This document shows positions 107 to 38,607 of a stretch of 38,607 bases of DNA, one piece after another (positions within the stretch are counted from its first letter, which is position 1; each line of letters opens with the position of its first letter). Source of the stretch: a virus; IMG/VR virus record IMGVR_UViG_3300043425_000405, positions 1 to 38,607 of that record. One strand, written 5' to 3'. Position numbers and translations under genes: made by a program. Under the pieces are notes generated by a model. The model was given only the letters and a program-made list of their open reading frames with translations. It was not told where the DNA came from and searched no databases.

Positions 107-172
107 CTGGGTCATGATTGCGCGGGTCATGACTGCGTAGGTCATGACGTCATGACTGCGTAGGTCATGACC
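107..172. repeat. GGTCATGAC iteron array (left copy)
   Basis: The palindromic octamer GTCATGAC occurs at 126-133, 141-148, 149-156 and 164-171, with a degenerate first unit at 110-117. Start spacings are about 15, 15, 8 and 15 bases, and the spacer between units is TGCGTA or TTGCGC. The array resembles initiator-binding iterons of replicons. No Rep-type initiator gene was recognised, so the binding protein is unknown. Confidence 0.7.
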
Positions 173-192
173 GAATTTGCATGGGTGTGTTA

Positions 193-206
193 CTGTGTTA
201 ACACAG
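193..206. promoter_or_regulatory. Perfect 14-bp palindrome (left copy)
   Basis: CTGTGTTAACACAG is perfectly self-complementary. In the right copy (38445-38458) the equivalent is CTGTATTAATACAG, where a G-to-A change on one arm is matched by a C-to-T change on the other. Such paired change suggests a dimeric protein site or cruciform is maintained. The binding factor is unknown. Confidence 0.6.
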
Positions 207-359
207 CACATGGGCAATCTGGGTCATGGAAATGCAGGCCGTTCTTATAAAGAACAATTTATAACCATATAGGTTAATTATATACTTTTTTCATACTGAC
301 TATACAATCCATTACCCAGATTACCCAGAACTCTCCAAGACCCGCGCATTTGAGCCGTT

Positions 360-500
360 TTTTTCTGGGCAATTTATAGCGAAACCATGACCCAGCAAAT
401 GACCATTTCGCCCAGTTTCAGGACCCATGATTTTCGCCCTATTTTTTCTGGGTCATTTTCTGGGCGGTTTCTGGGTCATGTTTTTTGGCAAATGACCCAG
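360..500. repeat. CTGGGTCAT/ATGACCCAG repeat cluster
   Basis: The nonamer CTGGGTCAT occurs on the + strand at 448-456 and 471-479 and on the - strand at 387-395 and 492-500. Further + copies lie at 107-115 and 219-227. Shorter CTGGGC or CCCAG variants lie between them, often after a T-run. The cluster sits between the iterons and the early promoter and looks like multiple binding sites for one protein, for replication initiation or early gene control. Confidence 0.65.
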
Positions 501-519
501 AAAATACCCTCATAATATT

Positions 520-528
520 TGTGGATAA
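520..528 (-). other. DnaA box, candidate origin element
   Basis: TGTGGATAA is the exact complement of the consensus DnaA box TTATCCACA. It follows the repeat cluster and the AT-rich stretch 240-320. One consensus nonamer can arise by chance, but its place beside iterons and an AT-rich tract supports a replication origin at about 80-560. Confidence 0.5.
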
Positions 529-616: not shown

Positions 617-808
617 ATGACAACAAACCGCGTAATGCGCCTTAACAACAATCCAGATGCACGCGGCTTTATCATCCGCGTATTAGAAGAAACGCATCGC
701 GACGTTTTAGGTAACATTCATTTTAAAGTTATCGCATCCGAAACCGCTGGCACTAAAAAATCTGCCAACGCGGTTTATGACCGTTTGCGCGCGGATTATG
801 TCGCATGA
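617..808 (+). CDS. Small early protein (63 aa), unknown
   Basis: First gene of the early operon. A good ribosome site (GGAG at 604-607, within GGAGTGAGA) precedes the ATG by nine bases. The protein is small and basic, without signal peptide or membrane segment. It contains a SETAG pentapeptide also present in the next gene. Its stop overlaps the next start (ATGA), which implies translational coupling. I recognise no family. As the first early product it could act on the host, but nothing in the sequence shows that. Confidence 0.75.
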   Translation: MTTNRVMRLNNNPDARGFIIRVLEETHRDVLGNIHFKVIASETAGTKKSANAVYDRLRADYVA

Positions 809-3709: not shown

Positions 3710-4044
3710 TAGAATATGCCGTTCGCAAGCAGATAAAGCACCTGTGCGGCTATATCAGCGACAAAAGCGCCGTGTTGCAGCACGTCAACAGGGAGCACAA
3801 CCTAAACTTGACGATGGCCGACATTATAGAGGCATCCACCACGCGCCACCGCGCACGGCGGACCGACCTAAAGGCCATGACGCCATCGCCGCTGATTGTG
3901 ACGCATAGAAGCAGGGGTTACGACCCGCTGGCTAGGGCGCTGTTCAAATACCATGCGGCGCGGACGTTCGGCCCTGAGCAAGCCTACTGGCTCGACAGGC
4001 TGAACGACCGCAAGCCGAAACCGACAACTACAATCGAACTGTAA
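3706..4044 (+). CDS. Basic early protein (112 aa), possible DNA-binding
   Basis: Coupled by ATGA. The N-terminal 45 residues include ISDKSAVLQHVNREHNLNLT, which could form a helix-turn-helix, followed by an arginine-rich segment (TTRHRARRTD). The chain is basic overall. A nucleic-acid-binding role is plausible but unproven. No family is recognised. Confidence 0.7.
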   Translation: MIEYAVRKQIKHLCGYISDKSAVLQHVNREHNLNLTMADIIEASTTRHRARRTDLKAMTPSPLIVTHRSRGYDPLARALFKYHAARTFGPEQAYWLDRLNDRKPKPTTTIEL

Positions 4045-4053
4045 AGGAAACCA

Positions 4054-4191
4054 ATGATTAAACCACAGCAAGCCGCGCCTATCGGGCGCAAGCACCGCGT
4101 CTCATCCGACAGCGCATGGCCGCTACGGGGCGCAGACGGCAGGACATTCGCGGAACGCCGCGCAACACATGAAAAGGAACAAAGCAAATGA
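4054..4191 (+). CDS. Small basic early protein (45 aa)
   Basis: ATG preceded by AAAGGAAA. The peptide is Arg/Lys-rich (GRKHRVSSDSAWPLRG near residue 11), with no hydrophobic segment, and is probably largely disordered. It overlaps the next gene by ATGA, which supports translation. Function unknown. Confidence 0.6.
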   Translation: MIKPQQAAPIGRKHRVSSDSAWPLRGADGRTFAERRATHEKEQSK

Positions 4192-5802: not shown

Positions 5803-8145
5803 TCAATTCTTGCCTATCGACGGCATAATACTCGACTTAGGCAACTCTTCTGCCAAGCGGCGCAAGTCTGATTTGTTCCGCTGGCGCACGTCAGGCGCGG
5901 CGAAGATGTGCTTCTTTGTGGGATACTCCACAGAGTGAACGCGGCCTATGTCAACCCATCCAGCTTCCTTTAGAGCGTGTAGGAGCGCCGCCTGTGGTAT
6001 CTTCACGCCAGCAGGCACGTTGATTGCCAGCGCGTCACAGATACGATGGAACGGGCCGCCGATCACGCCATTGGCGAACACACCCGCCTTCTCGCGCATC
6101 ATGTCTACCAGATAGCTTTCGGCAACGCTCATGCCATGCTCGACCATGTTCAGTTTCCATTCGGTCACTGGCGGCGCAGCCGCAGGGTTGAACGCCGACA
6201 CGTCGCGTTGATGGAGCCAAGCGGCGCACTTCTCATAGCCGCCGTTCTTATACCACGCCCACAGCTTGTCCGCTGCGGCTGGAGCCATGCGCGGCGCGTG
6301 CGTCCACACGCAGAACCACCGCCTGTCCTGTGTCGGCAGCGTGATGGGCAGCGGATCGTTCGTGTAAGCGATGACCATCAGGCGGTTCACCAGTTCGTAA
6401 GGGTGCATCCCCTTGCGGTTGACTGTCAACGTCTCAGGCGGCGCAGCGATGAGCGGCTTCAGCTTGTTAGCCATAGCGCGGCGCTCTCGTGCCTCTGGTT
6501 CCTTCAACTCGTTCAGGATGACAACCTCAGCCTCAAGCGAATAGCCCCACTGGCTGTCCAACCCGCCAGCCTCAATGACTGACCTGTTGCGCCAATGCTT
6601 GCCGCCCAGCGCCCACAGGAACGGCTGGAACATACTGTCCTTACCGACGCCTTCATCGCCGCCGATTAGGATGGCATGGTTAATCTTGACGTTGGGATGC
6701 TGTATCTTGAACGCCATAGCGTTAAGGATGTGGTCTAGTTCTTTGTCATCAGCCACCAAATCGCGGCAATGCTGAAGCCACGGCTCAACGTCATGATCGG
6801 CGATTGCATCGCTGTCTGACACGTCAGGGCGCCCGTCTGTCCACCTGTTGCCGTAGACAAGCCCGTCACGCGTCACCAACACGTCATCGCCAGCGGCGAA
6901 CGTCACCGCCGACAGCGCAGGAGCGCCGCGATCTTGACGGCGCTCATCATAATAGATGGACGCCTGCACGCGCTGGGTCTTTTTGTGGATGGAGCGGCAT
7001 TCAACGTGACGGAACAGCGCGTTAAAGACGTTGCGGGCTATCTCTTGACGCGTCACCATGTCAAAATAGCAGTCATCGGACTGGATATAAGCGAAACGCT
7101 CGAACCATTCGTTTTGTTCCAGCCGTCCGGCTTCTTTCTTTTCAACCTCACGCACACGCGCTGCGGCCTCATCAGGAAAGGCATCATTCGGCGCGATCTT
7201 GTCATACATCGACGCCAGACGTTCGGCGATGAGTTCGTCACGCAATCCCGGAGTTACCTTCGGGCCACCATTGTTGTCTACCCAATCAAGAAAGGCGCGG
7301 CTGTCTAGGTCTTGGCAATGCCCGTGGTAGCAGCAAAACGAGCGGTCGAGCGGCTTGTAGCGCGCCTCAACCATGCCGTCGCTGTGTTGCTCATAGTTAG
7401 GACAAACGATGCCGCACCAGCCGTCAGCATTAGGTGCGCTAAGAACTAGGCTGTTTTCGTTTAGCCATGTCAGGACGTTGTCAAGGCCATTGTCGCGCAA
7501 CTGCACCGTTTTATACTCGGCTGTGTCGCCTTCCTGTGGCGTGACGCCCAGCGCCGCGCATATTTCATCCAGCGTGTATTCACGCTCAGGGTGGAACTCG
7601 ACCAGCCGCGCCGGAAAGTTATTGCGCCCGCGCTTCAGGTTGACGCTGCCGGGTATACGACAGTTGCGGACGGCGTTAGTCGCGCCGGGATCGGTGTAGC
7701 CAGCATCCGCGATGGCCTTGATGGCCGCGCAGAAGTCGCCTTTCTTTGGTTGGTCGCTGAACGCGTAGCCCCATTGGAACGAACCTTCGCTGGTTTCCAA
7801 CACCCATGTCGGGTCAAGCGGCGGCTCTTTTGATTTCGTGCCAACGTCATCCAGCATCATGAACAGGACATATTCGACGTTGCTCGACTTGGCGGACGGC
7901 TTGCCGTCTACAAAGCGGTCAACGATGAACGAGCCTGTGTTGATATACCACGCCTCGCCTTCTTTGATGCGTGCCTTGTCAGGCATGAACGCAGGAAAGG
8001 TGGCGGATGGCACGCCGTCAGCATGGTAGATGATGCTGCCATCAGCGTCATACTTGGGCTTCTGACGCAACAACAGCGCCGTCTCGCCAGTTTCGCTGGC
8101 TAGGCCGGTGACGTAATCTATAAACTTGATGCGATCCTCACTCAT
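5803..8145 (-). CDS. Primase-helicase (AEP-type primase + SF3/D5-like helicase)
   Basis: A replicative fusion of 780 aa. In numbering from the ATG at 8145: about residues 90-185 resemble a RepB/AEP-type primase, with an acidic LDD motif (~98-100) and RNCRIPGSVNLKRG (~160-173). A Cys/His cluster (CGIVCP...H and CCYHGHC, ~244-277) looks like a zinc site. The helicase has Walker A GGDEGVGKDS (~495-504), Walker B VVILNELKE (~541-549) and an SF3-like YTNDPLP...DRRWF motif (~594-610), as in DUF5906/D5-like helicases. The ATG at 8145 has an ideal AAGGAG seven bases upstream; an in-frame ATG at 8166 is seven residues longer. It should unwind and prime DNA for the adjacent polymerase. Confidence 0.9.
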   Translation of the reverse strand: MSEDRIKFIDYVTGLASETGETALLLRQKPKYDADGSIIYHADGVPSATFPAFMPDKARIKEGEAWYINTGSFIVDRFVDGKPSAKSSNVEYVLFMMLDDVGTKSKEPPLDPTWVLETSEGSFQWGYAFSDQPKKGDFCAAIKAIADAGYTDPGATNAVRNCRIPGSVNLKRGRNNFPARLVEFHPEREYTLDEICAALGVTPQEGDTAEYKTVQLRDNGLDNVLTWLNENSLVLSAPNADGWCGIVCPNYEQHSDGMVEARYKPLDRSFCCYHGHCQDLDSRAFLDWVDNNGGPKVTPGLRDELIAERLASMYDKIAPNDAFPDEAAARVREVEKKEAGRLEQNEWFERFAYIQSDDCYFDMVTRQEIARNVFNALFRHVECRSIHKKTQRVQASIYYDERRQDRGAPALSAVTFAAGDDVLVTRDGLVYGNRWTDGRPDVSDSDAIADHDVEPWLQHCRDLVADDKELDHILNAMAFKIQHPNVKINHAILIGGDEGVGKDSMFQPFLWALGGKHWRNRSVIEAGGLDSQWGYSLEAEVVILNELKEPEARERRAMANKLKPLIAAPPETLTVNRKGMHPYELVNRLMVIAYTNDPLPITLPTQDRRWFCVWTHAPRMAPAAADKLWAWYKNGGYEKCAAWLHQRDVSAFNPAAAPPVTEWKLNMVEHGMSVAESYLVDMMREKAGVFANGVIGGPFHRICDALAINVPAGVKIPQAALLHALKEAGWVDIGRVHSVEYPTKKHIFAAPDVRQRNKSDLRRLAEELPKSSIMPSIGKN

Positions 8146-8155
8146 CGCTTGCTCC

Positions 8156-10129
8156 TTATTTGCCATATCGTTCCATAACTGCCACTTCTGCGTTCAGGGG
8201 TAGCCCTGATGCCCAAGGTGGCGGCTCACACATAATCTGCACCAGCCGCGCTGCGGCGGCTTCGGCTTCATCCTCTGGCACTTCCAAGACGATTTCATCG
8301 TGGATGTGCAACACTACGTTGTCCAATCGACGCAAGGCGGAGCGCAGCAAGTCGTTGGCGACAGCCTGCGTGATGTTCTCACACGCCAGACCGCGCCACA
8401 GCCGCGCCCTCGGCCACTCTTTCGCATCTGCGGCTGGCTTCCATGAAGCCTTGGCATAGGTCAGATTGCCTTCTTCGTCAAAACGGGCGAAAGGATAACA
8501 TAACACACGTCCGGACGGAAGAGCATACCAAAGATGCAATCCATCAAATAAATATGTGACGCGGCCAACGGTGAACTCGCGGCCCTTGTTCCGCATGGCG
8601 CGCATATAGGTTTCCTCAAGGCCCGACCAATACGGCACGGCCCATTTGTTTGCCCTGCGCCATGCGTCTACCATGCGCTTTGCGTCGCTCTCCGACATGG
8701 TCAAGCCGTAGATGCGGCCCATGCTGGCGAACGCGCCGACGCCACCGGCAAAGCCGCACGCCAACTCCTGAACCTTGCCGATTTGGCGCTGGTCTTTATC
8801 GACCTCGTCATAGCCGACATGGAATGTCGCCATAGCGTTGTGCTTGTAAACGTCCTCACCCTTGGCGAAGATATCCAGCTTGTTTGCGCCGAAGGTGCTG
8901 TTGGACGCCCACGGCGTGACGCGCGCTTCGATAGCAGCCCAGTCAGCGACGATGAGCCGCTTGCCTTTGTCGGCCATCAGCGCAGGGCGTAGCATACCTT
9001 TCAACACGTCCGTCACGCGGCGACCATGCTCAGGGACTATTCTGTGGCCGCGCACCATAGCCTGCCGCACTAATGCCGGGTCATCGGCACATTTTCTTGG
9101 GAAGTTGTGGACCTGAAGCCCAAATGACGAAGCACGGCCAGTAGCGCTGCCTCCTGCAAATACGAACGCTCCTCTAACACGAAAATCTTCCTCATCAGCG
9201 AGCGCCGCCGCACGCTCGAACTTTGCAACGGACGATGCCCACAAATCGTCCGCGCACTGGATAACCTCCGCAACTTCTGCCGGTACTTCATCTGGGTTCT
9301 CCTCCGCCAACGCGAGCAAATTAGCGCGCACGTTCTTGTCAATAGATAGCTTGGCTTCGCCGTCTTTGTAAATGGTCGCCAGTTCGAGCGCCTGCGGCCC
9401 TACACGGTCCAACACCCATTTACGCATCTTCGGGCTGCGGACGGACGTTATCTCGCCCTGCGTCACCTCTGCGACGATGTCTTGTATCTCGACCATCTCT
9501 TCTTGTGCGTAGCGCACAGCGGCCAGCGCCAGCGGCCTGTCGAGCAGGACGCCACGGTCATTGATGCGTTCGTTGGTGTGATAGTCGGCCAACTCATCCG
9601 CCGACAGCGGACGCTGCGCCTGCGCGATAGCGCGCATGGCACGGACATCCTGCGCTCCGTATTCACGAAACTCATCAAATAGGGCTGGATCGTCGCTATA
9701 CGGCGGTATGCACAGTTGCCGGATAAGCTGTTTACCGCGATGGTCTTTTTTCATTGATGCACCCATAAACCGGCCAGCATCTTCAAGACTACCGGGCGCA
9801 CAGTTGGCCCGCGACTGCGCGGCAGTGCAATACCATTGCTCTATGCGAGGGGTAGGGACGCCGTAATCAGGGCAAACCACATACTCAAATATGAGACGAT
9901 CAAAGCCAGCGTTATGGAAGCGCAGTTGGCCTCCGTCGCGGATATGTTGTTTGACGCGTTCAGGAAAAGGTTTGCCGCACGACGGCCACCATTCACCTAC
10001 ATCTTCATCACCAAAAGCCCAGTTGAACAGTATCAACTGCGTAGACGGGTGTTGAGCGTAATTATATGAACCTGACACAGGCAGGTTACATTCGCTGCGG
10101 GTTTCCGTGTCGCCCCAAAGAATAATCAT
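8156..10129 (-). CDS. DNA polymerase, family A, with 3'-5' exonuclease
   Basis: 657 aa. N-terminal DEDD exonuclease: D7-T-E9 (motif I), N73/D77 (motif II), Y157...D161 (motif III). Polymerase motif A is DWAAIEAR (D396), motif B is RQIGKVQELACGFAGG (R448, K452) and motif C is HDE (H610-E612), so all catalytic residues are present. There is no 5'-3' exonuclease domain. The start overlaps the stop of the HNH gene (ATGA) with AAAGG upstream. This is the phage replicative polymerase, acting with the downstream primase-helicase. Confidence 0.97.
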   Translation of the reverse strand: MIILWGDTETRSECNLPVSGSYNYAQHPSTQLILFNWAFGDEDVGEWWPSCGKPFPERVKQHIRDGGQLRFHNAGFDRLIFEYVVCPDYGVPTPRIEQWYCTAAQSRANCAPGSLEDAGRFMGASMKKDHRGKQLIRQLCIPPYSDDPALFDEFREYGAQDVRAMRAIAQAQRPLSADELADYHTNERINDRGVLLDRPLALAAVRYAQEEMVEIQDIVAEVTQGEITSVRSPKMRKWVLDRVGPQALELATIYKDGEAKLSIDKNVRANLLALAEENPDEVPAEVAEVIQCADDLWASSVAKFERAAALADEEDFRVRGAFVFAGGSATGRASSFGLQVHNFPRKCADDPALVRQAMVRGHRIVPEHGRRVTDVLKGMLRPALMADKGKRLIVADWAAIEARVTPWASNSTFGANKLDIFAKGEDVYKHNAMATFHVGYDEVDKDQRQIGKVQELACGFAGGVGAFASMGRIYGLTMSESDAKRMVDAWRRANKWAVPYWSGLEETYMRAMRNKGREFTVGRVTYLFDGLHLWYALPSGRVLCYPFARFDEEGNLTYAKASWKPAADAKEWPRARLWRGLACENITQAVANDLLRSALRRLDNVVLHIHDEIVLEVPEDEAEAAAARLVQIMCEPPPWASGLPLNAEVAVMERYGK

Positions 10130-10506
10130 AACGCACCTTTGCGCTTAGTATGCCAGTGCCTGTTTTCGTATGTGTGGACGCGATGACAGTTGGCGCAAAG
10201 CACGTCGCATTTTTCTATTTCAGTCAGCAGTTTTGCCTTTGCCACTTTTGGGTCTTGGCTAACATTAAATAATTTTTCACCGCGCACATGATTAAAGTCA
10301 AGCGCCGCTGGGTGCGCGTTATACCCACACAAGCAGCAACCTTTCGCCATTTTGACGCTGTCTATCAACGCCCGCCGTCCGCTTTGAAAAGCGCGGGTTC
10401 TAGCTACTTTTGATGGTGATTTTCGCTGACAGCGTATTGAGCAATACATCTGCCAAGGTCGAGCCGGTGTAAACTCACTGGCGCAGGTTAAGCAATTTTT
10501 AGACAT
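10126..10506 (-). CDS. HNH endonuclease
   Basis: 126 aa. An N-terminal zinc-like pair (CLTC near residue 5, CSIRC near 22) is followed by a basic linker and an HNH core: CCLCG, LDFNHV, then DVLCANCHRVHTYE. The CxxC pairs and the His residues match the zinc-finger HNH family. The ATG at 10506 is chosen over an upstream GTG (10548), which lies inside a hairpin. It may be a homing-type nuclease within the replication operon, since it sits between two replication genes, or it may act in DNA processing. Confidence 0.88.
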   Translation of the reverse strand: MSKNCLTCASEFTPARPWQMYCSIRCQRKSPSKVARTRAFQSGRRALIDSVKMAKGCCLCGYNAHPAALDFNHVRGEKLFNVSQDPKVAKAKLLTEIEKCDVLCANCHRVHTYENRHWHTKRKGAL

Positions 10507-10532
10507 AGAAGTTCTCACTCTTCTGCTACTCA

Positions 10533-10555
10533 CCGGAGCGCCCAACACGCTCCGG
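10533..10555 (-). promoter_or_regulatory. Intergenic hairpin before HNH gene
   Basis: CCGGAGCG (10533-10540) pairs with CGCTCCGG (10548-10555) around a 7-base loop. On the - strand no U-tract follows, so it is more likely an RNA processing or stability element, or a weak attenuator that lowers nuclease expression, than a full terminator. Confidence 0.55.
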
Positions 10556-11249: not shown

Positions 11250-12371
11250 TTACTGGATTTTAGACATAGCTTTGGTGAGCGTCTGTCCGATTTGCAAAAC
11301 CGCTGGCCGAGGGTCATCCTCCGGCGCAAGGGTAGAGCCTGTGGAGACAGCGGCAACTAAGTCCGCTGGCAATTCTATCTTGACTTTCTTCAAAGCCTTT
11401 TCCGCTTGGGCCGGTGACAGCGGCTTGGGGTCGCCCCATGCTTCTATACCCGCTTGGGTCATAAATGCTACAGCTTTATCTTCATCTGTCCACTGTCTTG
11501 TGGCGCGTTTGTTGACTAGCTTCCAGCCGGGGACTTTACGGCCTTCTTCCAGAAGCCCGTGCGCCATCTGCTGCACATCCTTGATGAACGCTTCGATCAG
11601 CGGCGCCTGTTCCAGATAGTGTGCAATCTGGTCAATCGGCAGCGCATCCAGCTTGGCTTTCAGCGCGCGGTCTACAGCGCCCGTCATCACAGGGCAGATG
11701 GGCTTGGCCGCGCACCACTTGCAATGGTCGCCTGATGCCAACGGCGCGTCTGGCCGCATGGCAATCTTGACGGCAGCGGCAAGTTCTTTCTCAAACGCGT
11801 CAACGCGCGCAAGGTCTGTCACCCAACGCTTGACGTAGGGCGGCTGCACAATAATCAGTTCGACTTCTTTTGCGTCTTTGAAAGCCCATGCCGTATCCGC
11901 CGTGCGTTTAGCAGCCGCAGCGTAGAAGAGTAGCTGCGCGTTTTCTTCGACTTCGACAGCCACGCCATCGCCAAACTTCCAATCCAGAACAATCGCTCGA
12001 TCACCAATGCGACCAAGAAGATCGGTAGAACCAAAAACGTCAGGCAGAAAATCACCAAAACCAACCCTGCTCTCAACAGCATATTCCATCTCCCCCTTGG
12101 GGTCTACATCGTCCAACGCGCGCAGCGCCGGTATCAGCTTATCATCAACCAGTGCTTCGGTCAGCACGGTCTTTTCATAGGCGGTGCCGACCATGCTGTA
12201 CGGGTCAATGTCACGCTCTAATATGGTGGCTATAGTATCATGCAGGAGCGTGCCTTCGTCGGCGTAGCTGCTGCTGGGCTTCGGCGGTACGGTGTCCACC
12301 AGCGCCACGCTGCCGGGGCAGGCGATGACGCGCTTGGCGGTAGAGCCGCCGACTATCTTACTATGTTGCAT
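11250..12371 (-). CDS. DUF2800/Cas4-like PD-(D/E)XK nuclease
   Basis: 373 aa from the ATG at 12371 (leader GAGTGAGG). The N-terminus has AKRVIACPGS (Cys about residue 18), then GTLLHD. The catalytic core is VLDWKFGDG (D and K of PD-(D/E)XK), followed by ENAQLLFYA. Near residue 225, DHCKWCAAKPIC gives three more cysteines, so with the N-terminal Cys a Fe-S cluster as in Cas4/AddB is likely. Probably a 5'- or 3'-acting exonuclease for recombination or replication of phage DNA. First gene of the replication operon, divergent from the VRR-NUC gene. Confidence 0.85.
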   Translation of the reverse strand: MQHSKIVGGSTAKRVIACPGSVALVDTVPPKPSSSYADEGTLLHDTIATILERDIDPYSMVGTAYEKTVLTEALVDDKLIPALRALDDVDPKGEMEYAVESRVGFGDFLPDVFGSTDLLGRIGDRAIVLDWKFGDGVAVEVEENAQLLFYAAAAKRTADTAWAFKDAKEVELIIVQPPYVKRWVTDLARVDAFEKELAAAVKIAMRPDAPLASGDHCKWCAAKPICPVMTGAVDRALKAKLDALPIDQIAHYLEQAPLIEAFIKDVQQMAHGLLEEGRKVPGWKLVNKRATRQWTDEDKAVAFMTQAGIEAWGDPKPLSPAQAEKALKKVKIELPADLVAAVSTGSTLAPEDDPRPAVLQIGQTLTKAMSKIQ

Positions 12372-12401
12372 ACTGTACCTCACTCTATTGTTTGAACCGC
12401 C

Positions 12402-12429
12402 ATAATACAGACAACAAAATTTGATGCAA
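12402..12429 (-). promoter_or_regulatory. Promoter of the replication operon
   Basis: On the - strand TTGCAT (12429-12424) and TATTAT (12407-12402) are separated by 16 bases. The predicted start lies about 24 bases upstream of the nuclease ATG. A second TTGCAT lies upstream (around 12438-12443), making a tandem TTGCA, a feature also seen at the late promoter. Confidence 0.7.
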
Positions 12430-12467
12430 CCCTTGAAATGCAAAAAATTTTGTAGTAGCGTTTTGCT

Positions 12468-12743
12468 ATGACTGAGAAAGAAATAGAGCGATACTTCTGC
12501 AAACGCGTGCGGGCGGCGGGCGGTTTCGCGTACAAATTCCGCAGCATCACGCAGGTCGGCGTCGCTGACCGCATAGCTTGTATGCCTAACGGCGAGGCTT
12601 GGTTCGTGGAACTGAAGCAGCCTAACGGTCGGCTGTCTGCGTTGCAGCGTATCTTTTCCGATGAGATGACGCACACCAAGCAACACTACGCCTGCCTGTG
12701 GTCAAAAGAGGATGTGGACGAATGGCTCAAACGCTTCAGCTAA
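12468..12743 (+). CDS. VRR-NUC domain nuclease
   Basis: 91 aa, a stand-alone VRR-NUC domain typical of phage. It shows GVADRIACMPNG (~31-42), FVELKQPNGRLSALQ (~46-60) with the catalytic E-x-K, and a C-terminal helix. Related nucleases act on structured DNA such as replication or recombination intermediates. There is no clear ribosome site before the ATG. A weak TTGAAA-17-TAGCGT pair (12433-12461) would place transcription near the ATG. Its end overlaps the helicase start by 22 bases. Confidence 0.9.
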   Translation: MTEKEIERYFCKRVRAAGGFAYKFRSITQVGVADRIACMPNGEAWFVELKQPNGRLSALQRIFSDEMTHTKQHYACLWSKEDVDEWLKRFS

Positions 12744-33010: not shown

Positions 33011-35307
33011 TACATCATTCCTTCAGGGGATTGGCCGGGTTCTTCGGGTGGGGCCATAGCTTCTTCGGCGCCCATTTCGGGCATCTGTTGCATCTCAGGC
33101 ATCTCTCCCATGCCCATTTCAGGCATTGGTGGCTGCTGGGGCTGCATCATCTCTTCGTTCATTTCAGGCTGTTCGCGCATTTCGGGTGATGCACCAATCA
33201 GGTCGCCTGTGTCGAGCGCGCCAGCAATAGTACCCATGACGATGTCTTGGATTTGCTCTGGCGTCATGCTGTTCTGAACAGCCGAAATGCGCTTCGTTTC
33301 GGCGTCGTAGGCGTCTACTTGCGCCTTGTATTCCTTGATGTCTACTTCGCGCTGCGCGACGCTGTCCTGAACATTCTGGATGATGTCGGTCATCCGGTTC
33401 AGTTCCTGCGTCATGGCCTCTATCTGTTGCTGTGCAGCCATCATCTCTGGCGACTGATCGCCGTCCGACAATACCTTCGGGTCAAGGATTTTCTTAAACC
33501 GCTCTGCCATTTCTTGCGCGCCCGGCCAATCCATGTTCTTGATGAACAGGTCGCCTGCAACAGCCCAAAGCTGCGGGTTCGACTGCAAAATCTGGCTCAT
33601 GGCGTCAAGGGCTTCTTGGCGCTTGGTCATGTAGCCGGGGCCAGTTGTGACCATAACGTCGTAAGTACCAACGCCGGGGTTGTAGACCTTTTCGATCAGA
33701 CCGCCCAATTCATCACGAATTTCCTTGACAGGCTCTTTCTGCGTTGGGTTGAACTTAACCATGTCAACGTCACCGTCAACGCCGATAATGCGTGCGATGC
33801 GCTGCGTGTCGTAAATCTTTGGTATCAGGTCTACAATTTGGCGTGTGATGTGCCGAATGGCGCGCGCAAGGTTGTCTACGTAATGGTAAGTGCCGACATC
33901 GCCCTGCTTTTCACGCGCTACGATGGCCTTAGCCGACCGTTCGTTGCCCTGTTGGCCGAGGCTGGCGTCATACTGGCCGGTGGTGGCCTTAATGTCCTCA
34001 CCAGCGCCCATTTTAGCCTGTATCAGGCCCGTTTGGGGTAGCGGGGGTGCTGCACGCTGTGGCAACGGCAAAACGGCTCCAGCGCCGTCTGTAACGTCTG
34101 GATTGACTTCCAGATACGGCCAGTTGGTCGTATTGGCAGTCTTCCACTGCATTTCGTAGCCTTCAAACTGACCGCCGTAACCGATAAACGGTGCTTTCGG
34201 TGCCAACGCCAGCATTTCTGCTTCTTGGCTGGTCCAGTAGTTGTACATACGCTGGGCGTCTTTGGCGTTACGCACAAGGCCGCTGATGTACAGCTTGCCT
34301 TCGACTTCCCATTCGTTACCAACGACGCGCACGACAGGTATCCACTTGCCGGGCCATTCGCGCTCGTCGAGGATGTCGAACCCGTTGGTTTTCATCCACA
34401 TGACCTTTTGGCGGTCTACTTCGCGGGTGCGAATAGGCTTGCCAAACATGGCTTGCAGATTGGCGTCTTGCGGTGTGCCTTTGAAAGCTGTCTGATTGTC
34501 TGGATACAGGTTCAGCGTAGCTTTTTCATACGACTTATAGAAGTATTCGGCGATCCGGATGGTGTCTTCGGCCAGCCACTGCGCCATGCTCTCGTTACCA
34601 ACGCCCTGCGACATGAGTGTCGAGATAGGCGCTGCGTCTGGGAACATACGCTCATAGTCGGAAATTAGGATGTCTTCGGTGACAAAGCACCACTCAGCGT
34701 CAGCGCCGCATGGGTCTTGGATTGTGGGGTCCATATAGACGCTGAACGCATTGCGGACGCGCGCAATGCGGATGTCTTGGTCGAAAGTTTCTTCGTTGCA
34801 GTATTCAGTCAGCAGGCGGATGTAGCCTTCGCCGTAGGTGACTTGGTTGTCGCAGGCGGTGTCATACGCAACGTCAGCGTCCGACATATACTCGATGTGG
34901 CGCACAACGCCGTTGAAAATCTCGGCGACTTGAACGTCAGCATTGTCGTCAGCGGGTATTACCTTGCCGCTTGGGCGGTTTTGACGCTGTTCGTTGGTGA
35001 CCTGACGGACGTGTTGCGGCAATTTGTTAATTGTCAAGCAGGGACGTGCGTTAATTGTCTGCCCTTGCACGCTTCCGCGTGTCGCCAGCACGTCAGCAGG
35101 CCACTGCCACTGGTTGTCAGGGCTACCGGCCATAAACCGCAGGTCATCCAACTCGTCTTCACGGCTGTCAGAATACGCAGCCTGCGCCATTTGCAGACGC
35201 GACCGCATGGTTGCCATCTTGTCATTGTCGTCGCCAGACGTTTTAGGCGGGTTAGAGCCTACGTTGGCGACTTTGCCTGCGGTGTTGATGCCTGTGGGAT
35301 CGGCCAT
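33010..35307 (-). CDS. Portal protein (P22 gp1-like)
   Basis: 765 aa (P22 gp1 is 725). Conserved segments include RLQMAQAAYSDSREDELDDL and ARPCLTINKLPQHVRQVTNE near the start, then PTIQDPCGADAEW, typical of P22-type portals. The C-terminal ~150 residues are helical, then Met/Pro/Glu/Gln-rich (~715-765). It forms the dodecameric ring through which DNA passes. The gene follows a small basic protein and precedes the Dps-like gene. Confidence 0.94.
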   Translation of the reverse strand: MADPTGINTAGKVANVGSNPPKTSGDDNDKMATMRSRLQMAQAAYSDSREDELDDLRFMAGSPDNQWQWPADVLATRGSVQGQTINARPCLTINKLPQHVRQVTNEQRQNRPSGKVIPADDNADVQVAEIFNGVVRHIEYMSDADVAYDTACDNQVTYGEGYIRLLTEYCNEETFDQDIRIARVRNAFSVYMDPTIQDPCGADAEWCFVTEDILISDYERMFPDAAPISTLMSQGVGNESMAQWLAEDTIRIAEYFYKSYEKATLNLYPDNQTAFKGTPQDANLQAMFGKPIRTREVDRQKVMWMKTNGFDILDEREWPGKWIPVVRVVGNEWEVEGKLYISGLVRNAKDAQRMYNYWTSQEAEMLALAPKAPFIGYGGQFEGYEMQWKTANTTNWPYLEVNPDVTDGAGAVLPLPQRAAPPLPQTGLIQAKMGAGEDIKATTGQYDASLGQQGNERSAKAIVAREKQGDVGTYHYVDNLARAIRHITRQIVDLIPKIYDTQRIARIIGVDGDVDMVKFNPTQKEPVKEIRDELGGLIEKVYNPGVGTYDVMVTTGPGYMTKRQEALDAMSQILQSNPQLWAVAGDLFIKNMDWPGAQEMAERFKKILDPKVLSDGDQSPEMMAAQQQIEAMTQELNRMTDIIQNVQDSVAQREVDIKEYKAQVDAYDAETKRISAVQNSMTPEQIQDIVMGTIAGALDTGDLIGASPEMREQPEMNEEMMQPQQPPMPEMGMGEMPEMQQMPEMGAEEAMAPPEEPGQSPEGMM

Positions 35308-36168: not shown

Positions 36169-37695
36169 TTACGAACCCATCCAGCTAGTAGAAACTCCGT
36201 GCGGAGAATAGCTGCTAACGCGTCGCTTGTCAACGCGTGCTTCACGATGCGCAATCGGGAACGCGAATGTGACCGCTAGGGCGTCCGCAGCGTCCGGTGA
36301 GGCCAGCCCGCGCGACTTCATGTCCTTCTTGCTTTCGAGGAAGATGGTCCCCTTGCTGTCAGGCTTTACTTTAGGGCTGATCAGGTCGGTTTTCAGGAAC
36401 CTATCGTTGGGGATGTGCGCCGTTTTCAGCCAGTCGCGCATGGCGCCCCACATCTCAGCGCGCTTGTTGCCGTACATGAGTTGCTTCATGGCCTTATTGC
36501 CGAAGTTCACGCCGCGTATCTTGTACCGCTGCTCTTTCAGCCGGTCTACGACGCCCGCGCCTAGCCCACCTTCGTCGATGACGACCAGCGCGGGCTTATA
36601 CTCTTCGATAGCGTCGATGACGTGTCCGACCACTTCCATAGTGTCAGCACCGCGGTGGCGCTTGATGGCGATCAGGTCGCGCCCTTGGCGCACGGCGATG
36701 ACGGTGGCGTCCGCACCGAAGCGCGCAGGGTCAACACCGATAGCTATGGGCGCTGTTTCGTCTTTGTGCTTTGGCCGGGCCATCGCGTCATCGACCAGAT
36801 TGCTGCCGATGAACTGATCGTCGCCTTCTGATGGGAAGTTGCCGTAGACTTCAACGCTGGCCTGATAGCTGTCTGGCCCGTATTCGTCGATAATGCGCTG
36901 GTACAGGTTTTTGTCTGTACCTTCCACATCGCGCGCGTCGATAGTGCGTGTGCGCCAGAACGCCCGTTTGCTGTGAAACGTCTCGTAGAAATAGCCGGTG
37001 TTACGCCGCGGGTTGGAAAAGGCCAGATGGAAGCGATGCGGCGTGTTCTCCGTGAAGAAACCATCGCTAACCGACCAGATGCTGTCAGGAATACCGCTGG
37101 CTTCGTCGAAGATCAGCATCACACCGTCGAAGTTGTGGACCCCTGCGTATGCGTCAGGGTTCTCTTCGGACCACAGCCGCCCTTCGACTGACCAGTAGCG
37201 CGTACCTTTCTTGAGGTCGCGCTCGACCAGTTCGGTCAGCCATTTGGCTGGCATGATGCGTGTGGCGGCTATCTCGAACCAGTGGCTGTTGAGCGACATC
37301 GCCAGCCACTTGGTAATTTCTGCCCATGTGACCGAGCGTAGCTGCGCTTCAGAGTTTGCCGACACGATGGTAGTACTACCGATGCGCGTAGACAGCATCC
37401 AGATCACCAACCAACTGACCAGCGCCGACTTGCCGATACCGCGTCCAGAAGCCACCGACTCACGGAATGTATCATAGTCTAGCTTACCGTTGTTCTGCTT
37501 GATGTGGTCGCGCAGGTCGCCCAGTATCTGACGCTGCCATTTGCGCGGTCCTTGGAAATGTTCGAGCGGCGTACCTTTCTCGCCCCACGGGAATGTCAGC
37601 AGTACGAAAGCTAACGGATCATCCTTAATCGACGGCGACCACAGCCGCGTCATCAATTCCATCTCTTCGGATGCGCTGTATATCGGTTGCTGCAT
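36169..37695 (-). CDS. terL: Terminase large subunit
   Basis: 508 aa. ATPase: Walker A SGRGIGKS (83-90, K89), Walker B MLIFDEAS (193-200, D197/E198). C-terminal RNase H-like nuclease: D322 (IGVDPARF), D374 (VVIDEGG) and D468 in SPDAADAL. It pumps and cuts DNA into the head. The ATG at 37695 overlaps terS by 71 bases and has a distant GAGG; ATGs at 37662 or 37653 are alternatives. Confidence 0.95.
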   Translation of the reverse strand: MQQPIYSASEEMELMTRLWSPSIKDDPLAFVLLTFPWGEKGTPLEHFQGPRKWQRQILGDLRDHIKQNNGKLDYDTFRESVASGRGIGKSALVSWLVIWMLSTRIGSTTIVSANSEAQLRSVTWAEITKWLAMSLNSHWFEIAATRIMPAKWLTELVERDLKKGTRYWSVEGRLWSEENPDAYAGVHNFDGVMLIFDEASGIPDSIWSVSDGFFTENTPHRFHLAFSNPRRNTGYFYETFHSKRAFWRTRTIDARDVEGTDKNLYQRIIDEYGPDSYQASVEVYGNFPSEGDDQFIGSNLVDDAMARPKHKDETAPIAIGVDPARFGADATVIAVRQGRDLIAIKRHRGADTMEVVGHVIDAIEEYKPALVVIDEGGLGAGVVDRLKEQRYKIRGVNFGNKAMKQLMYGNKRAEMWGAMRDWLKTAHIPNDRFLKTDLISPKVKPDSKGTIFLESKKDMKSRGLASPDAADALAVTFAFPIAHREARVDKRRVSSYSPHGVSTSWMGS

Positions 37696-38119
37696 GGTAG
37701 GTGCTATCCTCTATCTGGGGTACTTCAATGTACGTCCCTTCGATGACGCGCTGCTGTGCCTTTTCCAGCGCGCCTGTAATGCTGATTTGCTGGTCGATGT
37801 TAACGTCGATCTGCTGCTTGGCTACCCAGCCATGCTGATGCTTGAGTATTTCCAGCGCAGCCTTGCTGTCGCCATCGCGCGCCGCTTCGTACATGGTCTT
37901 GGCCGCGGTGTATTCGCCGTCGGTGCGCCCTTTGATCTCAGCCATCTCGACCAGCGGGTCTGCTTCAGCCAATATGCGGTATTGGCGCGGGGTTAATCCA
38001 GCGGCCATAGCGAGGCTGTCGCCTTTCAGTCCGTAGCGCGCGGCTTCATAGATTGCCTCTAACCGCGCCTCGGTGGCTTGCGTGCGCTCAGGTGTAAATG
38101 GCAGTGAGTAAAATGTCAT
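37625..38119 (-). CDS. terS: Terminase small subunit
   Basis: 164 aa from ATG 38119. Helix-turn-helix-like N-terminus (YGLKGDSLAMAAGLTPRQYR), then a helical repeat-type centre including GDSKAALEILKHQHGW, and an acidic tail, as in many TerS proteins. It recognises the packaging site and loads TerL. There is no good ribosome site, and the promoter at 38127-38155 puts the predicted mRNA start next to the ATG, so translation may be leaderless. The next in-frame ATGs inside the gene would delete the HTH. Confidence 0.85.
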   Translation of the reverse strand: MTFYSLPFTPERTQATEARLEAIYEAARYGLKGDSLAMAAGLTPRQYRILAEADPLVEMAEIKGRTDGEYTAAKTMYEAARDGDSKAALEILKHQHGWVAKQQIDVNIDQQISITGALEKAQQRVIEGTYIEVPQIEDSTYHAATDIQRIRRDGIDDAAVVAVD

Positions 38120-38224: not shown

Positions 38225-38359
38225 TCCAGTCCGCCAGCGTTTCGGCTTTGTTCTATCGCGCAGATTTTGGAATGGCCTTTCACTTTCGCTAATGCGAACG
38301 GTTCGCAAAAACACATCGGCTGGCTGGCTATGCTGCGGTGCAACATTTTACTGGGCAGT

Positions 38360-38424
38360 CTGGGTCATGATTGCGCGGGTCATGATGCGTGGGTCATGAC
38401 GTCATGACTGCGTAGGTCATGACC
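38360..38424. repeat. GGTCATGAC iteron array (right copy)
   Basis: Same array as 107-172, with one base deleted between the second and third units and one substitution in a spacer. The GTCATGA cores are unchanged. The conserved cores with varying spacers are consistent with binding sites under selection. Confidence 0.65.
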
Positions 38425-38444
38425 AAATTTGCATGGGTGTATTA

Positions 38445-38458
38445 CTGTATTAATACAG
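38445..38458. promoter_or_regulatory. Perfect 14-bp palindrome (right copy)
   Basis: CTGTATTAATACAG, the counterpart of 193-206. Both arms changed together relative to the left copy, so the dyad is intact. It lies 3' of the iterons, as in the left copy. Confidence 0.6.
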
Positions 38459-38607
38459 CACATGGGCATTCTGGGTCATCGAAATGCAGGCCGTTCTTAT
38501 AAAGAACAATTTATAACCATATAGGTTAATTATATACTTTTTTCATACTGACTATACAATCCATTACCCAGATTACCCAGAACTCTCCAAGACCCGCGCA
38601 TTTGAGC

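Follow-up and report, generated by a model that had tools for sequence, protein, structure and literature searches.

The phage genome considered here (IMG/VR record IMGVR_UViG_3300043425_000405; the whole stretch of 38,607 nucleotides is called the window below) carries a crowd of short repeats in a non-coding gap bordered by a candidate small terminase gene on the minus strand (start about 38119) and, on the plus strand, by the first early ORF (617). The question is what these repeats do and which protein reads them. They are very probably the replication start site of this phage. Since the repeat changes in step with a loop at the end of the helicase, its reader can be named as well: the initiator is most likely the VapE/DUF5906 primase-helicase encoded at 5803-8166 on the minus strand. 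A literature search, which reached few subscription papers, returned no earlier description of this origin. Most metagenomic phage origins have no assigned initiator; here initiator, DNA-reading domain and target are nameable from sequence alone.

Iterons, an AT-rich tract and a DnaA box in one intergenic gap

Within positions 91-540 we found six exact copies of CTGGGTCAT, four on the strand presented and two on the other, whereas 500 dinucleotide shuffles averaged 0.002 and gave 1 at the highest; across 500 such shuffles a 9-mer reached four copies at most and never six. Two additional tandem copies (ATTACCCAG) carry one mismatch each. An AT-rich tract (about 241-305) lies between a left and a right set of iterons, and a perfect DnaA box follows the last copy (Table 1). 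The only ORF overlapping the left part of the gap is a short one on the opposite strand (32-217). An earlier note on this DNA had pointed to the same combination, with six repeats in both orientations, an AT-rich tract and a consensus DnaA box in one non-coding stretch, and all of these elements are indeed present, the repeats far beyond chance. The GC-skew check that it suggested was uninformative, neither GC skew nor fourfold-site skew presenting a clear switch.

Table 1. Features of the window that bear on the candidate origin and its proposed initiator
Feature	Coordinates	Strand	Basis or remark
Iteron CTGGGTCAT, left set	107..115	+	exact match
Four GTCATGAC palindromes (starts 126, 141, 149, 164), element separate from iterons	126..171	.	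exact copies
Perfect dyad CTGTGTTAACACAG, possible operator	193..206	.	symmetric change in strain variant
Iteron CTGGGTCAT, left set	219..227	+	exact match
AT-rich tract between two iteron sets, candidate melting site	241..305	.	lowest 50-base GC 16%
Two tandem one-mismatch iterons ATTACCCAG (starts 311 and 320), right set	311..328	-
Iteron CTGGGTCAT, right set	387..395	-	exact match
Iteron CTGGGTCAT, right set	448..456	+	exact match
Iteron CTGGGTCAT, right set	471..479	+	exact match
Iteron CTGGGTCAT, right set	492..500	-	exact match
Perfect DnaA box TTATCCACA	520..528	-	starts 28 bases after start of last iteron
First early ORF, flanks origin on other side	617..808	+
Primase-helicase, proposed initiator, 787 aa, DUF5906/VapE-like	5803..8166	-	Pfam, covariation, NrS-1 fold match
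Predicted C-terminal winged-helix domain, residues 701-773	5848..6066	-	AlphaFold2 models
Wing residues 744-750 (HSVEYPT), segment covarying with iteron class	5917..5937	-
Family A DNA polymerase, replication module	8156..10129	-	Pfam, PHROGs
DUF2800 exonuclease, replication module	11250..12686	-
Candidate small terminase, origin-flanking	37625..38119	-	adjoins TerL, like annotated small terminase of DSL-LC05
Second, variant copy of gap (about 48-355), other strain	38300..38607	+	sequence match; relative L133 spans both

Two strain variants of the gap and closure of the genome

Positions 38343-38607 are a second copy, 96% identical, of positions 90-355, which the earlier note had missed. This copy has iterons at 38360, 38471, 38563 and 38572 and palindromes at 38393, 38401 and 38416. 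In the relative L133, both end pieces are found in one uninterrupted run, and because L133 is continuous through both, the two copies represent a single intergenic locus of the closed genome. Judged from this continuity, the contig closes to a circle in which the gap (about 750 bases) is present once, two strain variants of it having been assembled. The contig ends carry different variants, and closure therefore escaped end-repeat detection. The strain copies do not differ over 229-355, a segment holding the AT-rich tract and both ATTACCCAG copies, while about ten positions differ further left; an inverted repeat at about 25-58 is swapped for another, GCGAACGGTTCGC, in the end copy.

Besides the replication genes of Table 1, the phage encodes its own portal (P22-like), major head protein and TerL. 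A putative HNH endonuclease (10126-10548) sits between the polymerase and a DUF2815-like gene; it has hits in only two classed loci, the window included, and thus is probably a mobile insertion.

Arrays in related phages

More than 200 loci were recovered from IMG/VR, the queries being the terminase, the helicase of this phage and a pair of diverged helicases. The corresponding gap of most relatives contains an array in which one 8-9-mer recurs on both strands, and the word differs from phage to phage: CTGGGTCAT, GGACGTCAT, TAGGCTAT, TAGGTCAT, TTGGGTCAT, GTGGGTCAT, GTGAGTCAT and TGTGGACAAT, plus rarer ones. Considering arrays with at least four copies (n=74), 66 have copies to the left and to the right of an AT-rich 50-mer (median GC 0.22). 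A clear array was not found at several clade-3 loci.

Of 80 distinct arrays, 28 have a perfect DnaA box no more than 200 bases away, against a mean of 0.31 for permuted words, and the remaining 1.11 Mb of the loci contain none; two thirds of the arrays have no perfect box within that distance. Within a class its position is fixed: in the window, L037 and L190, for instance, the box starts 27-28 bases after the last iteron begins. With this enrichment beside arrays, the part of the earlier note that proposed an iteron-type phage origin using host DnaA is well supported.

The repeat class follows the predicted wing of the primase-helicase

Well over a hundred related phages formed the basis for comparing the tested genes with the iteron class, using within- versus between-class distance (R) and the information about class held by each alignment column (z). 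The helicase stood out by class distance: its last 90 residues gave R 0.52 and its body 0.28, other genes reaching 0.21 at most. Residue 744 alone holds 1.39 bits about iteron class (z 24), and no column in any other tested gene comes close to residues 744 and 746. The best columns of PolA, TerL, TerS, portal, DUF2815, DUF2800 and SNF2 did not exceed z 3.9, and those of early genes between the array and the helicase gene did not exceed 4.2, except for e1651 (z 8.4, from 14 sequences only). The earlier note had looked for the initiator among the early proteins; as the wing of the helicase, and not the sequences of the early genes, tracks the repeat class, the initiator is probably not one of them.

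Within the main clade, the residue pair 744/746 corresponds to a single class in 46 of 47 phages: GT, GS or GV with TAGGCTAT, NK with GGACGTCAT, HV, AV or AI with CTGGGTCAT and GK with TAGGTCAT. A dense GGACGTCAT array was not found in six NK-type phages (L087, L091, L145, L154, L155 and L164), some of which show loosely related ACGTCA words. When the classes of 60 phages are placed on a tree built from the helicase body (residues 101-690, the C-terminal part left out), at least 20 class changes are needed; the residue pair changes with them except in L155, whose class had been called from a different repeat. Supported branches yield a small number of independent pairs (5, 4 and 3 per class), of which almost all are concordant and none is discordant. 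The clearest natural swap is found between L170 and L171, whose residues 1-735 are 98% identical and whose wings differ, as do their iterons.

The pairing extends to loci outside pattern discovery, where RLKSR wings go with TGTGGACAAT and RVASG wings with TTTGGGTCATT, the latter also in the distant L294; L360, from a Rhodoferax bin, combines an RLKSR wing with ten TGTCCACA copies. Since common ancestry links most of these later loci to earlier ones, they count as confirmation, not as independent trials. More independent are L201, L294 and L360, in which the pairing recurs across clades with helicases only 55-72% identical. Wings of KR type occur with three iterons of the GTG type that are related to one another; residues beyond 744 and 746 therefore contribute to the code. 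In the KR-wing class (L063, L120 and L211-L234), the iteron TTGTCCACA is closely similar to a DnaA box, which may be coincidence or mimicry.

Domains and predicted structure of the primase-helicase

Pfam assigns DUF5906 (E 3e-9) to the protein, with a VapE-like match below the cut-off and a weak, sub-threshold match to RepB_primase; Pfam gave no Toprim hit and a search of NCBIfam no hits. Among solved structures, the NrS-1 helicase (6k9c and 6k9e) is nearest to the helicase region in sequence (E 1.5e-7) and in fold (E 1e-12), with about 16% identity across the fold match. Foldseek with the full-length model matches this helicase, D5-type helicases and PriRep1 with dsDNA (7pds).

Mean confidence of the AlphaFold2 model (pLDDT) is 64 for the whole protein and 75 for residues 636-787, with 81-89 in the core of this region. 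Both models present the winged-helix order strand-helix-helix-strand-loop-strand, the domain model reading H-S-H-H-S-wing-S, and residues 744-751 are predicted as the wing that joins strand 738-743 to strand 752-756. The structural matches obtained with the domain model are weak (Z 5.9 at best), and the absence of the P4 origin-binding domain from those listed does not count against it. The helix preceding the wing (725-734) hardly varies between classes, pointing to the wing, instead of the customary recognition helix, as the likely determinant of iteron preference.

Proposed mechanism and other readings of the repeats

We consider it highly likely that the gap is the replication origin and that the CTGGGTCAT copies are the predicted binding sites of the C-terminal winged-helix domain of the helicase. 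The primase-helicase would assemble on the two iteron sets, melt the AT-rich tract between them, load itself and prime for the phage family A polymerase, with the host DnaA box assisting in this phage and in about a third of its relatives. Base preference would be set mainly by wing residues 744-750, so that wing and iterons would change together.

An unlikely alternative is that the repeats are operators for divergent terminase and early promoters, bound by a phage or host regulator, with replication starting elsewhere. The array does lie in a divergent intergenic region, and the GTCATGAC palindromes and the dyad CTGTGTTAACACAG look operator-like. The palindromes, which the earlier note had correctly placed at steps of 8 or 15 bases (15, 8, 15) and taken for iterons, are far in excess of expectation (4 observed, mean 0.018 in dinucleotide shuffles). 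They also occur in 3-5 copies each in phages of the TAGGCTAT class (L094, L134, L141, L142, L148, L153 and L193) and hence are not the iterons, varying independently of iteron class. A partner for them was sought among the early genes, and the best p value, 0.001 uncorrected, is not convincing. At 38445-38458, the strain variant has CTGTATTAATACAG in place of this dyad: the two half-sites are altered jointly and symmetry is kept, as expected for a bound operator, which makes an operator function possible for this element. Against an operator role for the array, the replicative helicase is the one gene among those tested that varies with iteron class; an early regulator was considered as the reader and rejected, as neither presence nor sequence of any early gene tracks the class. 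The helicase could also repress transcription at the gap as a side effect of its proposed origin binding.

Still less probable is a hitch-hiking scenario, in which array and helicase tail would be swapped as one recombination block without contact between protein and DNA. In its favour, the helicase C-terminus is encoded at the gene end closest to the array and class switches are frequent; the genes lying between array and tail, however, have R from -0.14 to 0.21, and such little or no class association argues against simple linkage. The recurrence of the same wing-iteron pairing in L201, L294 and L360 also speaks against it.

We give hardly any credence to a packaging (pac) site read by the neighbouring small terminase: the array is directly upstream of that candidate gene and the P22-like portal suggests headful packaging, but this protein, which has no family hit, is improbable as the reader, as it does not covary with class (R 0.14, best column z 2.8), and a DnaA box and an AT-rich core are features of origins.

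Comparison with known replication systems

In satellite phage P4, as summarised in PMC4234260, the alpha protein unites a primase, a helicase and, for binding origin repeats, a winged-helix domain in one chain; SaPI Rep and P4 alpha bind such repeats via a C-terminal or winged-helix domain (PMC7581432, PMC4234260). The initiator proposed here resembles alpha as a primase-helicase with a predicted C-terminal winged helix. It differs in its primase, which is of the bacterial Toprim type in P4 alpha, whereas the N-terminus here weakly matches RepB primase; moreover, P4 is a satellite, whereas the 38-kb phage described here encodes head proteins and a family A polymerase of its own.

Pri-Rep systems of SaPIs and PICIs have two iteron sets flanking an AT-rich region, with iterons read by the helicase C-terminal domain (PMC6092414, PMC7581432). 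The window and 66/74 arrays share this layout, and the proposed initiator likewise has a superfamily 3/D5-like helicase, its full-length model matching PriRep1. The PICI origin, however, is directly 3′ of rep, while the gap is 5.3 kb from the helicase gene, between terminase and early genes, in a phage that is no satellite and has its own portal, major head protein and TerL. Given this distance, the non-Toprim primase and the DnaA box of many members, we describe the candidate origin as working like those of P4 and PICIs without classing it as a member.

As far as the account in PMC4980987 goes, iteron plasmids with a separate Rep share the iterons, AT-rich unwinding region and DnaA box; the present iterons differ in occurring in both orientations with irregular spacing and in having the helicase itself as proposed reader. 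An oriC-type origin uses several DnaA boxes as its main sites, unlike the one perfect box at the array here.

Implications and observations in distant relatives

The evidence is evenly balanced on a broader proposition: that origin specificity resides in a few wing residues, not in the recognition helix, and switches fast across a large group known mostly from aquatic metagenomes, close relatives thereby falling into replicon compatibility groups. If so, the natural set would amount to a readable wing-to-iteron code, and compatibility groups were perhaps favoured by selection against cross-talk, be it with co-infecting relatives or with origin-stealing satellites. Natural switches offer a direct way to test the evolution of origin specificity, and the wing-iteron pairing could help to locate origins in phages with the same helicase type.

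A few distant relatives show particular arrangements. L209 (MW202483) has a TGTAAAC array in the gap, a very different helicase wing (GMCFAPELSTKRH) and a 98-aa protein annotated as a DnaA helix-turn-helix (7083-7379). In L210 (DSL-LC05), the primase is of another type, yet the array word is similar to GTGGGTCA; a hypothetical protein annotated over this array (3713-4078) is probably no gene. Among cultured Vibrio phages with 27-29% identical helicases, a matching array was not found in three. Vibrio phage PS25B.1 (L365), with a distant helicase, presents five AGTGTCAA copies in the gap upstream of its terminase genes (34791-34975) and is a possible cultured model.
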